Shown: in pieces, positions 32,509-36,614 of the stretch
How the letters are laid out: each line of letters opens with the position of its first letter
Position numbering within the stretch: position 1 is the first letter of the stretch
Assembly: GCF_014647155.1 (NCBI RefSeq)
Contig: NZ_BMOQ01000003.1
Location: 370,512 to 434,511, forward strand
Origin: Halarchaeum nitratireducens
Lineage (GTDB): Archaea; Halobacteriota; Halobacteria; Halobacteriales; Halobacteriaceae
Length of the DNA: 64,000 nt
Direction of reading: 5' to 3'
Translations under genes and position numbers: made by a program
Notes under the pieces: generated by a model
What the model was told of the DNA's origin: nothing
Database searches by the model: none
Seen by the model: only the letters and a program-made list of their open reading frames with translations

Positions 32509-33342
32509 CTACTTTGTCGTTTCCGGTTCGGGCGCTTCGCCCCGCGTGGCGTCCTCGATCCCGGCGCTCAGCTCCGCCGCCTTCTCGCGGAGGGCGTCGG
32601 CGGCCGCCTCCACGCTCTCCGCCGCGGCGATCGCGTCGACGAAGACGCTGCCGGCGACGACGCCGTCCGCGCCGCCCTCGACGATCGCCCTCGCGTGTTC
32701 GCGCTCGCTCACGCCGAAGCCGACCGCGTAGGGGAGATCCCCCTCGGGGAGGCGCTCCAGGCTCTCGTAGGTGTCCTCGGAGACGTCGGTGCGCGCGCCC
32801 GTCGTCCCCATGCGCGCCTGCACGTAGATGAACCCCGAGGCGCGTTCGAGGATGCGCTCGATGCGCTCCGGGGTGGTGGTCGGCGCGACGATGAAGATCA
32901 GCGCGACGTCGTGTGCCTCGCAGGCGGCTTCGAGCGCCGTGGACTCCTCCACGGGGAGGTCGGGAATGATGAGCCCCGAGACGCCCGCGTCCGCGGCGGC
33001 TTCGACGAACGCGTCGACCCCGTCCCCCTCGCCGTACTGCAGGAGGAGGTTGTAGTACGTCATGCAGACGATGGGGACGTCGACGTCGAGGTCGCGTACG
33101 AGGTCGAGGTAGCGCGCTGGCGTCATTCCGGCGTCGAGCGCGCGCCGGATGCCCTCCTGGATCGTCGGACCGTCCGCGATCGGCTCGCTGAACGGGAGGC
33201 CGAGCTCGATCACGTCCGCGCCGCCCTCGACGAGCGCTTCGACGTACGTTTCGGTGGCGTCGGCGCTCGGATCGCCCGCGACGACGTACGGCACGAGCGC
33301 GGGGCCGTCCGCGAACGCCGCGGTGACGTCGTCGGCGCTCAC
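32509..33342 (-). CDS. trpA: Tryptophan synthase alpha subunit
   Basis: 277-residue TIM barrel that splits indole-3-glycerol phosphate into indole and glyceraldehyde 3-phosphate. Catalytic Glu46 and Asp57 are in [19 protein letters not shown]; the phosphate-binding [10 protein letters not shown] and [12 protein letters not shown] segments are intact. The GTG start overlaps the trpB stop codon by four bases, implying coupled translation and equal subunit supply. The C-terminal tail of about 15 residues is acidic and non-conserved. Confidence 0.97.
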
Positions 33343-34607
33343 GCGCGGAACACCTCCATGTCCGGGGCCTCCTCGAGGTCCCGCTTCTCGGACTCCTCGA
33401 TGACGGTGTCGAGGTCCTTGTCGCCGCGCCCGGAGACGTTCACGATCACGGGGCCGTCCCCCTCGTAGTGTTCGAGGTAAGCGATCGCGTGGCTCGACTC
33501 CAAGGCGGGGATGATTCCCTCCTCGCGCGAGAGCCGGTGGAACGCCGCGAGCGCCGCGTCGTCATCGACGTTCACGGGCGTCACGCGCTCCGAATCGACG
33601 AGGTGCGCGAGCTCGGGGCCCACGCCCGCGTAGTCGAGGCCGGCGGAGACCGAGTGGGACTCGACGATCTGTCCCTCCGCCGTCTGGAGGAGCTTCGTCT
33701 TCGCGCCGTGGAGCACGCCCACGGTACCGGTGCCGAGGCTCGCGGAGTTCGGCGCGTACTCCTCAGATGCCTCGACGCCGAGGCCGGACCCGCCCGCTTC
33801 GACCGCGTAGAGGGCGACGTCCTCGTCGTCGACGAACTCGTGGAACGCGCCCATCGTGTTCGAGCCGCCGCCCGCGCAGGCGACGACGGCTTCCGGGAGC
33901 CGGCCGAGCTGATCCAGCGCCTGCTCGCGGGCCTCCTCGCTGATGACGGACTGGAAGTCGCGCACCATCGTCGGGAACGGATGGGGTCCGACGACGGAGC
34001 CGATGACGTAGTGGGTGTCCTCGACCGTCGTCGCCCAGTCGCGCATCGCCTCGTTCGTCGCCTCCTTCAACGTCCCAGAACCGACGGTCACGGGGTTGAC
34101 CTCGGCGCCGTGGGTGCGCATCCGGAAGACGTTGGGACGCTGGCGGTTGATGTCCGTCCGGCCCATGTATATCTCGCAGGGCATGTCGAGGTACGCGGCG
34201 GCCATCGCCGTCGCGGTGCCGTGCTGGCCCGCGCCCGTCTCCGCGATGATCCGCTCCTTGCCCATGTACTTCGCCAGGAGGACCTGCCCGAGCGCGTTGT
34301 TCAGCTTGTGCGCGCCGCCGTGGAGGAGGTCCTCGCGCTTGAGGTAGACGTCGAGGCCGTACCGCTCGGAGAGGTTGTCCGCGCGTCCCAGCGGCGTGGG
34401 TCGCCCGCCGAAGTCGCGCAGGCGCTCGCGGAAGTCGTCCACGAAGCCGTCCTCGTTGTTCAGGACGTATCGCTCGTAGGCGTCGGTGAGTTCCTCGACC
34501 GCGGGCATCAGGACCTCGGGGACGTACTGGCCGCCGTAGCGACCGAACTTCCCCGCGCCATCGTCCGCGTTCGTGCTCGCGTCCGTGGCGGTCTCGCGTC
34601 GGCTCAT
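33339..34607 (-). CDS. trpB: Tryptophan synthase beta subunit
   Basis: 422-residue PLP enzyme joining indole and serine. The PLP lysine is Lys101 in [13 protein letters not shown]; the catalytic glutamate is in [11 protein letters not shown], and the phosphate cup GGGSNTMG and [10 protein letters not shown] follow. It is the TrpB1 type, as expected with an adjacent trpA. A 20-residue low-complexity N-terminal extension ([14 protein letters not shown]) precedes the conserved [11 protein letters not shown]. It overlaps trpC by four bases. Confidence 0.97.
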
Positions 34608-35371
34608 GTGGACTCCACCACCTCCGCGTTCACCAACGCTTCGGTGTTCGCGGCGACGTCGCCGTCCATGATCGCGGAGCCCACGAGGAGCGCGTCCGCG
34701 CCGGCCGCGCGCATCCGTCGGACGTCCGCGGGCGAGGTGATCCCGCTCTCCGCGATCAGCGTCACGTCGTCGGGGACCGCGGGTGCCACTTCCTCGAACG
34801 TCCCGAGGTCGACGTCGAGCTCGGCGAGATCGCGGTTGTTCACGCCGATGTATTCGGCGCCCGCGTCGAGCGCGCGCGCGACCTCCTCGCGGTCGTGGAC
34901 CTCTACGAGCACCTGAAAGCCACGCTCGCGCGCCGCGTCGTGGAGGCGTCCGAGGTCGTCGCCGACGAACCGCGCGATGAGGAGCACGACGTCGGCCTCG
35001 ACGGCGTCCAGTTGCGCCTCGCGCACCACGAAATCCTTGCGGAGGACGGGGACGTCGACGGCCGCCCGTATCCGTTCGAGGTTCGCCGTCGAGCCGCCGA
35101 AGTGCTCGGGCTCGGTGAGCACCGAGAGGGCGCTCGCGCCGCCGGCGACCATCGCCTCGGCGAGCTCGACGGGGTCGTCGCGTCGCTCGCCCTCGGTCGT
35201 CGGGCTCGTCGGTTTCACCTCCGCGATCACGGGCACCCGTCCGTCCGCCTTGGCGTCCGCGACGGCCGCTCCGAGCGAGCGCGGGTCGACCGACACCCGG
35301 CCGCCCGCGACGTCGCGCTCGCGCGCCGCGCGCAGGATCGAGCGCACCTGTGGTGCGAAATCATCGTCCAT
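34604..35371 (-). CDS. trpC: Indole-3-glycerol phosphate synthase
   Basis: 255-residue TIM barrel that closes the indole ring. [14 protein letters not shown] (catalytic Lys), [29 protein letters not shown] and IAESGI are the canonical segments in order. It is the first gene of trpC-trpB-trpA and starts at ATG 35371, directly next to phased TGTACA boxes, so it is probably leaderless. trpD, E, F and G are not in the window; they lie elsewhere, as is usual in haloarchaea. Confidence 0.96.
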
Positions 35372-35374
35372 TAC

Positions 35375-35400
35375 TGTACACTAATGCACGCATCTGTACA
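35375..35400 (-). promoter_or_regulatory. Phased TGTACA boxes at the trpCBA promoter
   Basis: TGTACA occurs at 35375-35380 and 35395-35400, with a degenerate TGCACG at 35385-35390, so three hexamers start exactly 10 bases apart. They occupy about -4 to -30 relative to the trpC ATG, where a leaderless transcript would have its TATA box and start site. TGTACA is the known TRP box bound by TrpY in Methanothermobacter. Tryptophan-dependent repression is therefore a reasonable inference, although no TrpY homologue lies in the window. Confidence 0.6.
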
Positions 35401-35465: not shown

Positions 35466-35921
35466 ATGGACGCCGGCATCTACGCGTTCGCCCCGACGTA
35501 CCTCGATCGCTACGTGCAACTCGGCGTCGCCGGCGACCGCATCATCGACGTCTCCTTCCCCAAGGACCCGGACGACGACGCGCGGGACGACCACCCGCTC
35601 TTCGAGCGACTGAACGCCTACTTCGAGGGCGTGGCCGACGACTTCGCCGACGTCGCCGTCGGGCTCACGATGGCGACCGACCAGCGCGCCGTCCTCGAAA
35701 CGGTGCGCCAGATCGGCTACGGCGAGCAGGTCACCGTCGAGACGCTCACCCGTATGACGGCCGGTCTCGACGCCGACGAGGAGGCCGACCGCCAGCTGGC
35801 GCGCACCGCGCTCGCGGAGAACCCCGTTCCGCTCGTCGTCCCCGATCATCGCGTTCGGGACGCCCCGAGCGGCGCGCCGCCGGAGGTCGAGCAGAAACTC
35901 CGGAGCCTCGAAGGCCTGTAA
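35466..35921 (+). CDS. MGMT-like protein with the catalytic cysteine replaced by aspartate
   Basis: 151-residue protein of the O6-alkylguanine-DNA alkyltransferase superfamily. Residues about 1-68 resemble the small N-terminal domain; AVLETVRQIGYGEQVTVETLTRMTAG and QLARTALAENPVPLVVPDHRV (about 75-130) match the DNA-binding and active-site part. Where alkyltransferases have PCHRV, this has PDHRV with Asp127, so suicide alkyl transfer is impossible. Alkyltransferase-like proteins, usually with Trp or Ala at this place, flag lesions for nucleotide excision repair, which is the best functional guess. It is divergent from trpC, just upstream of secE. ATG 35466 gives MDAGIYAF. Confidence 0.8.
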   Translation: MDAGIYAFAPTYLDRYVQLGVAGDRIIDVSFPKDPDDDARDDHPLFERLNAYFEGVADDFADVAVGLTMATDQRAVLETVRQIGYGEQVTVETLTRMTAGLDADEEADRQLARTALAENPVPLVVPDHRVRDAPSGAPPEVEQKLRSLEGL

Positions 35922-35996: not shown

Positions 35997-36173
35997 ATGG
36001 ACGTTCCCCTAGAGCTTTCAGCGTACACGCGGGTGCTGAAACTGGCGAGCACCCCGGAGTGGGAGGAGTTCTCCCAGATCGCCCTCATCGCCGGGGCCGG
36101 TATCCTCCTCATCGGCATCATCGGCTTCGTCATCTTCCTCGTCATGGGCTTCATCCCCGGGACGGGTGTCTGA
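35997..36173 (+). CDS. secE: Preprotein translocase subunit SecE (Sec61 gamma)
   Basis: 58-residue single-pass membrane protein that clamps SecY. The amphipathic ELSAYTRVLKLASTPEWEEFSQIA is followed by one membrane helix (LIAGAGILLIGIIGFVIFLVMGFIPG). ATG 35997 is preferred to 35958 because it matches the usual archaeal length. It is followed three bases later by spt5, a conserved archaeal pairing of secretion and transcription elongation genes. Confidence 0.95.
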   Translation: MDVPLELSAYTRVLKLASTPEWEEFSQIALIAGAGILLIGIIGFVIFLVMGFIPGTGV

Positions 36174-36176
36174 CGC

Positions 36177-36614
36177 ATGGGAGTGTTCGCCGTCAAGACG
36201 ACCGCGAGTCAGGAGCAGACGGTCGCCAGCATGATCGCCAACCGCGAGGAGAACGAGATCCACGCCGTTCTCGCGCCCGACGCGCTCACCAGCTACGTGA
36301 TGGTCGAGGCGGACAACGACGCCGTCATCTCGCGCGTCATGGAGGAGATCCCGCACGCGCGCAGCATGGTGCCCGGCGAGTCCTCGATCAGCGAGGTCGA
36401 GCACTTCCTCAGCCCGAAGCCCGACGTCGAGGGCATCGCGGAGGGGGACATCGTCGAACTCATCGCCGGCCCGTTCAAGGGCGAAAAAGCGCAGGTCCAG
36501 CGCATCGACGAGGGCAAAGATCAGGTCACCGTCGAACTCTACGAGGCGACCGTCCCCATCCCGGTCACGGTCCGGGGCGACCAGATCCGCGTGCTCGACA
36601 GCGAGGAACGCTGA
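36177..36614 (+). CDS. spt5: Transcription elongation factor Spt5 (archaeal NusG)
   Basis: 145-residue factor that binds the RNA polymerase clamp and promotes processive elongation; with FttA it also stimulates termination. The NGN domain spans residues 1-85 ([24 protein letters not shown]) and the KOW domain follows ([23 protein letters not shown], about 87-110). Length is standard for archaea. It is in an operon with secE, three bases away. Confidence 0.96.

Follow-up and report, generated by a model that had tools for sequence, protein, structure and literature searches.

What becomes of an alkyltransferase when its nucleophilic cysteine is replaced by aspartate is the question raised by a gene in the window, i.e., the whole 64,000-nucleotide stretch of Halarchaeum nitratireducens DNA analysed here (contig NZ_BMOQ01000003.1). 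The gene, referred to as MGMT-L, encodes an MGMT-fold protein. The best reading of the results is that MGMT-L is neither a classical alkyltransferase (AGT) nor a classical alkyltransferase-like protein (ATL), and that its Cys replacement, to judge from the sequences, is ancient and clade-wide.

Gene and predicted fold

The gene and the codon in question are the following.

35466..35921, plus strand: MGMT-L gene, an open frame from ATG to TAA, 151 amino acids plus stop (PF01035; AlphaFold model)
35844..35846, plus strand: GAT codon of Asp127, in the place of the AGT nucleophile Cys (sequence; family alignment)

The translation contains NPVPLVVPDHRVRDAP, with Asp as residue 127. The motif is NPVPLVVPDHRV, in which Asp127 occupies the AGT Cys position (PCHR to PDHR). 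PF01035 covers residues 73-133 with 29.2 bits (Pfam gathering score 27), and the NCBIfam model TIGR00589 (ogt) yields 23.7 bits, below its cut-off of 46.4.

The AlphaFold model, obtained with a 44-row alignment, presents a mean pLDDT of 95.1 and a pTM of 0.87. Structural comparison with VIA yielded a Z of 18.5 against Sulfolobus OGT (4zyd; 139 aligned residues, 1.8 A), a Z of about 14 to 15 against human AGT, and a Z of 5.9-6.3 over 73-75 residues against single-domain ATLs, among which S. pombe Atl1 (Z of 6.3, 74 residues) aligns to residues 68-151 only. The Foldseek ranking of families agrees with VIA. The predicted structure is thus a full two-domain MGMT/AGT fold, in which Asp127 starts a short helical turn, as read from the DSSP string. 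The sequence-only reading had proposed an MGMT fold devoid of the nucleophilic Cys, which PF01035, AlphaFold, VIA, Foldseek and Asp127 itself bear out.

Conservation of residue 127

All but one of 391 Halobacteria genomes, a set that includes the H. nitratireducens genome itself, contain an MGMT-L homologue (390/391), mostly with one match each, and it occurs in 86/86 genera, which rules out a chance open reading frame. The sole genome with no MGMT-L match (G340) is 88% complete, and its trpC match is weak too.

Residue 127 is Asp in 131, Ser in 4 and Gly in 1 of the 136 distinct crown haloarchaeal proteins, up to 80 of whose loci came from one contig pattern scan that contained PD and is therefore biased to Asp; loci from the class-wide homologue search, from the hand-chosen divergent haloarchaeal genomes and from the f4 pattern described below are free of this bias. 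Neither Cys nor Trp occurs at this position among the 136. Comparing residues 5-149 only, the distribution is Asp 130, Ser 4 and Gly 1 of 135, and an earlier set of 133 distinct haloarchaeal proteins gave Asp 125, Ser 6 and Cys 2. The five early-branching haloarchaeal proteins carry Ser (3) or Cys (2), and the relatives from other lineages of the phylum, which serve as outgroup, carry Cys in 20/20, these loci having been hand-chosen among the better-scoring matches.

The three nearest relatives (90%, 80% and 71% identity) likewise have Asp; together with the crown count, this rules out a sequencing error or an isolated mutation. Hence, Asp is conserved in relatives, the point on which the sequence-only reading had made its proposal depend. 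Its alternative, that relatives carry Cys and Asp is peculiar to this gene, fails for the crown haloarchaea and survives only in that two early-branching relatives do carry Cys. The protein with 90% identity is that of Halarchaeum rubridurum; there and in one matching genome (L033, L004), the Arg after His is replaced by Cys, giving PDHC.

The most divergent large family (f4) was searched with the pattern N-P-x-P-phi3-P-x-H, which matched in 96/99 genomes. The 143 matches listed comprise 94 with Asp and 49 with Cys, distributed as Asp only in 48 genomes, both in 46 and Cys only in 2. The f4 MGMT-L genes located by profile search have Asp, including that of G054, where the pattern match is Cys only. 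In another family, f9 (L188, L184, L133, L185, L187, L182), Asp, Ser and Gly all occur at the active-site position, and the constraint on residue 127 seems to have eased there. Given Ser or Gly stands at this position in 5/136 crown proteins, Asp is not indispensable.

Recognition helix, base-flipping Tyr and active-site loop

The remaining residues of the active site and DNA-binding region are placed as follows.

35736..35738, plus strand: Val91, at the base-flipping Tyr position (column counts in crown, early-branching and outgroup proteins)
35781..35816, plus strand: recognition-helix equivalent, residues 106-117, acidic (DSSP of the AlphaFold model; net-charge counts)
35820..35822, plus strand: Asn119, the Asn hinge (136/136 crown, 20/20 outgroup)
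35847..35849, plus strand: His128, counterpart of the AGT catalytic-network His (136/136 crown, 20/20 outgroup)
35856..35879, plus strand: active-site loop, apparently rebuilt, residues 131-138 (His128-Glu149 spacing; column conservation)
35910..35912, plus strand: Glu149, counterpart by alignment of human AGT Glu172 (136/136 crown, 20/20 outgroup)

Residues were counted at fixed offsets from the Asn hinge, with indels ignored. Over the 13 residues that precede the hinge, net charge averages -2.38 (-5 to 1) in the 136 crown proteins and +2.70 (1 to 4) in the 20 outgroup AGTs; the helix of the five early-branching proteins has a mean of -3.4. To control for adaptation to salt, the same count was made in 23 Ogts of Halobacteria that bear Cys (3 initial ones plus 20 out of the 39 strong-match genomes described below), and these present a mean of -0.04 (-2 to 1). 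The DNA-facing Gly of AGTs (G105; Arg113 in the window protein) is Arg in 124/136 crown proteins and in all five early-branching ones, and is kept in 23/23 control proteins, 19 of which have Arg or Lys before the hinge. The position of Lys-110 is mostly Glu (67) or Ala (39) among the 136 crown proteins.

The base-flipping Tyr is absent from the entire crown (Val 118, Leu 9, others 9, Tyr 0 of 136) and kept in 5/5 early-branching proteins, in 20/20 outgroup proteins and in all 23 control Ogts (22 by pattern, one by eye). His128 and Glu149 are separated by 21 residues in 132 of the 136 crown proteins and by 20 in the other 4, compared with 25 in 18 and 30 in 2 of the 20 outgroup proteins, and 25 in 5/5 early-branching ones. 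The active-site loop is thus about four residues shorter in the crown than in AGTs, with a crown consensus of about R-D-G-P-S-x-A-P. The sequence-only reading had held that the recognition-helix region remains, a claim these results do not support: the helix is acidic, the Gly has become Arg, the base-flipping Tyr has become Val, and the loop is shorter.

What took the place of the AGT loop is itself conserved in the crown (P138 0.985, P134 0.919, D132 0.904), while different residues mostly occupy 131, 132, 134 and 138 in the outgroup. Asp127 ranks 22nd of 151 columns in conservation, and eight columns are invariant in 136/136, five of them between the hinge helix and Glu149. Because the new loop is conserved and Asp127 ranks so high, the crown active site looks like a rebuilt pocket rather than decay. 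Arg131 is present in 111/131 proteins with Asp127 and in 0/5 with Ser or Gly, in raw counts that include kinship, and Asp127 and Arg131 may form a pair.

The Arg-finger position is Gln in the window protein and Arg in 19/136 crown proteins. Its loss was considered as proof of lost function and dropped, since 0/23 Cys-bearing haloarchaeal Ogts have Arg there, the residue being Val, Ile or Gln in 23/23.

Other MGMT-family genes in haloarchaea

The Cys-bearing haloarchaeal Ogts (L001:1243-1779, L199-L218) form a patchy separate lineage that keeps Cys and Tyr and has no arginine finger. One of them is encoded on another contig of the same H. nitratireducens genome (88.2 bits). When PF01035 was applied to 116 genomes of the class, a separate strong match (at least 62 bits) was present in 39, with Cys confirmed in 21 of these genes (L001 and 20 others). 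The early Cys form only was present in 1 genome, and weaker Asp/Ser-type matches only in 76, in a tally made by eye; a further weak match occurs in two of the 76 (G052, G092). Hence, MGMT-L seems to be the only MGMT-family gene in 76/116 genomes. Either it still serves alkylation damage in an ATL-like manner, or many haloarchaea manage without an AGT.

Comparison with known systems

MGMT-L has in common with the AGT/MGMT/Ogt proteins (SsOGT 4ZYE, StOGT 1WRJ, human 1T38) the two-domain fold, the Asn hinge, the His and Glu residues and the P-x-H-R-V motif, yet it differs from them by the missing nucleophilic Cys and Tyr, the shorter loop and the acidic recognition helix. With the ATLs (Atl1 3GVA/3GX4, V. 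parahaemolyticus 2KIF) it shares a replaced Cys and the C-terminal domain fold. However, it has Asp rather than Trp, two domains rather than one, no Tyr and an acidic helix; the matched ATL chains are 102-108 residues long and consist of the C-terminal domain only, compared with 151 residues and two domains in MGMT-L. Another ATL form has Ala at the Cys position. ATLs usually replace Cys by Trp and retain the HTH, the Tyr and the Arg finger, according to passages of a review (PMC10779285) that make no mention of Asp at this position; the sequence-only reading had likewise named Trp or Ala for ATLs and called Asp unfamiliar.

At published sites, MGMT-L resembles the man-made variant SsOGT-H5 more than an ATL. 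The relevant passages describe H5 as carrying S100A, R102A, M106T and K110E (PMC9519396), among five HTH changes in all (PMC5751216), and as unable to bind DNA while retaining the reaction with benzylguanine (PMC9519396, PMC5751216). The same four places are altered in MGMT-L: sites S100, R102, M106 and K110 correspond to Asp, Gln, Thr and Glu in the window protein, with Arg at G105 in addition. Unlike MGMT-L, however, H5 retains Cys and the reactivity that goes with benzylguanine. The best PDB sequence matches of the MGMT-L family profile are 6ga0 (29.5 bits) and 8aes (29.0 bits), followed by SNAP-tags, and SsOGT itself reaches 25.7 bits (4zyd, with modified DNA) and 24.6 bits (4zye). The titles of 6ga0 and 8aes refer to a self-labelling tag derived from a thermophilic alkyltransferase, and we take both to be H5-type tags. 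By analogy, this likeness gives the strongest indication so far that MGMT-L may have lost canonical DNA binding. Given the changes in helix, Tyr and loop, together with the likeness to an SsOGT-H5 that is dead in DNA binding, it is doubtful that Asp127 lies inside a working lesion pocket.

AGTendoV fusions, described in part of PMC10779285, are likewise archaeal AGT-domain proteins with altered roles, from which MGMT-L (151 aa) differs in having no endonuclease V domain fused to it. In the open-access PMC literature, we found no description of Asp at the AGT Cys place or of an MGMT-L protein, nor of an AGT descendant with new Asp chemistry or small-molecule sensing. No matching passage was found in "The core and unique proteins of haloarchaea" (PMC3287961), and no halophile passage in PMC7216122; the literature consulted also included PMC8305020, PMC9263693, PMC5626487 and PMC6737238.

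Phylogeny and gene neighbourhood

In a tree of 77 hand-chosen rows, whose bootstrap had not settled and whose outgroup differs from the haloarchaea in letter make-up, all MGMT-L proteins group together (100/99), separate both from the outgroup AGTs and from the haloarchaeal Ogts that bear Cys. The Cys form of family f5 is the first to branch (99/77, unstarred), followed by f11, with one Cys and three Ser encoded by TCN codons, and then by the crown, which stands on a long branch (0.9, 100/100) and in which Asp is the usual residue. Inside this Asp crown, Ser recurs (with AGY codons in 3 of 4), as does Gly. Since Arg already replaces the Gly and the helix is already acidic in the five early proteins, which still keep the Tyr and the long loop, the helix change seems to have come before, or together with, the loss of Cys; this order of losses on the tree is probable. 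L136 and L139, which are early-branching Cys forms with an acidic HTH, are possible alkyltransferases acting without canonical DNA binding.

Wide flanks were inspected in three f11 genomes, one with the Cys and two with the Ser form; in each of them nadM and lonB both lie within ~7 kb of MGMT-L, and a crown genome of f9 (G060) presents the gene order nadM-lonB-CPBP-MGMT-L-trpCBA. This shared synteny (lonB, nadM) supports orthology of the early and crown forms. Of 80 named loci, with names taken from profile matches, 43 contain CPBP, 41 lonB and 45 trpC; no nadM, lonB, CPBP or trpC neighbour was found in the f5 genome (19 kb) or in G129, G002 and G136 (18 kb each). The MGMT-L of G370 (L137 / L141) has an in-frame insertion of ~20 residues between the two domains.

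In the window, the gene is flanked by the following features.

34604..35371, minus strand: trpC, divergent neighbour (NF041303, 429.8 bits); trpB, 33339-34607, comes next
35375..35400, no strand: TGTACA box pair, 20 bp apart, just upstream of trpC and conserved across haloarchaea
35997..36173, plus strand: secE
36177..36614, plus strand: spt5

An operon partnership with secE and spt5 was considered and found to be local only, these genes being near MGMT-L in 9/167 loci: in 6 they share its strand (all Halarchaeum, three of these being the window's own locus), and in 3 they lie on the opposite strand. The trpC gene is upstream on the opposite strand in 103/167 loci with an MGMT-L match, a set in which loci overlap and 20 are non-haloarchaeal; the distance is mostly at most a few hundred bases and in a few cases up to 3.7 kb. 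TGTACAT occurs in 37/44 trpC/MGMT-L intergenic regions, versus 0.35 in simple shuffles, and the TGTACA pair is the sole exact one in the window's genome. In five hand-chosen genomes where the two genes are apart, TGTACA is upstream of trpC in 5/5 (as a pair in 2/5) and of MGMT-L in 0/5, with a 5-base core, TGTAC or GTACA, upstream of the unlinked MGMT-L in 3/5. TGTACA is the TRP-box core of TrpY of Methanothermobacter, and the pair is likely a haloarchaeal trp operator. Since TGTACA accompanies trpC rather than MGMT-L in unlinked genomes, the proximity of the two genes is probably not due to regulation by MGMT-L. A trpC match is present in 382/382 genomes, 371 of them above cut-off, so that a co-absence test with MGMT-L is uninformative.

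Alternative explanations

An ATL-like lesion sensor, which would bind alkylated bases without repairing them and hand the site to UvrABC NER, with Asp standing in for the ATL Trp, is suggested by the C-terminal fold common to MGMT-L and Atl1, by the loss of the nucleophile while His, the Asn hinge and Glu remain, and by the apparent lack of any other MGMT-family gene in 76/116 genomes. Moreover, AGT mutants that lack the Cys, namely human C145S and SsOGT C119A, were crystallised with lesion DNA, as a passage of PMC4605297 states. ATLs, however, retain HTH, Tyr and Arg finger, as cited above, while MGMT-L has no Tyr in 136 proteins, an acidic helix and a shorter loop, and its two domains set it apart from the short ATL chains. 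We regard this explanation as unlikely, yet as the strongest of the alternatives. If the protein were instead a dispensable relic with a drifting active site, the Ser and Gly that re-arise inside the Asp clade, and the mixture of Asp, Ser and Gly in f9, would be expected; such relaxed decay is nevertheless very improbable, given the retention in 390/391 genomes, the rank of Asp127 and the invariant columns from hinge helix to Glu149.

The position beside trpC and the conserved intergenic TGTACA pair would fit a regulator that acts on the divergent trpCBA operon via its HTH. Against this stand the acidic recognition helix, the match of TGTACA to the core of the TrpY box, and the five unlinked genomes, where the box stays with trpC in all five and with MGMT-L in none, a result that bears on a self-regulating regulator; we therefore give this explanation very little credence. 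Scarcely credible is a working nucleophile, in which Asp127, together with His128 and Glu149, would form a hydrolysable ester as in haloalkane dehalogenases and act as a turnover dealkylase. The invariance of His and Glu despite the loss of Cys speaks for it, but several lineages carry Ser or Gly instead of Asp, neither the substrate loop of AGTs nor the Tyr is left, and a carboxylate is, by general chemistry, a poor nucleophile toward O6-alkylguanine.

Repurposing as the preferred reading

MGMT-L is conserved across the class, has the predicted fold of an AGT, and has lost catalytic and DNA-binding residues. We favour, with moderate confidence, the reading that it is a near-universal haloarchaeal pseudo-alkyltransferase derived from an archaeal AGT, with a rebuilt and conserved pocket repurposed for binding. 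This is preferred to a lesion sensor because the Tyr loss, the loop change and the acidic helix argue against binding in the ATL way. Counted against it are the retention of His, Asn and Glu, which could mean the lesion pocket is still used; the 76/116 genomes with apparently no MGMT-family gene besides MGMT-L, a pattern that agrees with a persisting alkylation role; the 5/136 proteins with Ser or Gly at residue 127; the 19/136 crown proteins with the Arg-finger Arg; and the fact that halophilic proteins can have acidic DNA-binding surfaces.

Under repurposing, MGMT-L would have been inherited from an archaeal AGT whose DNA-binding helix was altered first or simultaneously with the later losses. 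The nucleophilic Cys would then have given way to Ser or Asp, and the Tyr that flips the base would have disappeared together with the active-site loop typical of AGTs. The scaffold of two domains would have been retained, as would the Asn hinge and the His-Glu pair. Alkyl uptake on Cys would no longer be possible, and flipping of O6-alkylguanine in the AGT manner, and with it canonical lesion binding, is very probably absent. Asp127 would hold a rebuilt, strongly conserved pocket (PDHRV-RDGPSxAP), most likely for a different ligand or for a partner protein, in a binding or scaffolding role. Hence, judging by its residues, the protein has probably lost the usual DNA repair and may have acquired a new role.

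We consider it improbable that the AGT has turned into a new protein whose Asp-His-Glu pocket does new chemistry or senses a small molecule. Such chemistry, which is as improbable as the sensing of a small molecule, could be that of a turnover dealkylase or hydrolase with Asp as its nucleophile; alternatively, the pocket could be an acidic one that accommodates nucleotides or cationic alkylated purines.

Significance

The family, whose Cys, Ser and Asp forms can be placed on a single tree, presents a route from a suicide repair protein to a core protein that a whole class conserves and that is non-catalytic or works differently. Annotating MGMT-L as MGMT or Ogt would assign these organisms a repair activity that is very likely missing in them. 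The results also suggest many haloarchaea (76/116 sampled) are without a recognisable Cys alkyltransferase, which bears on how they handle O6-alkylguanine.
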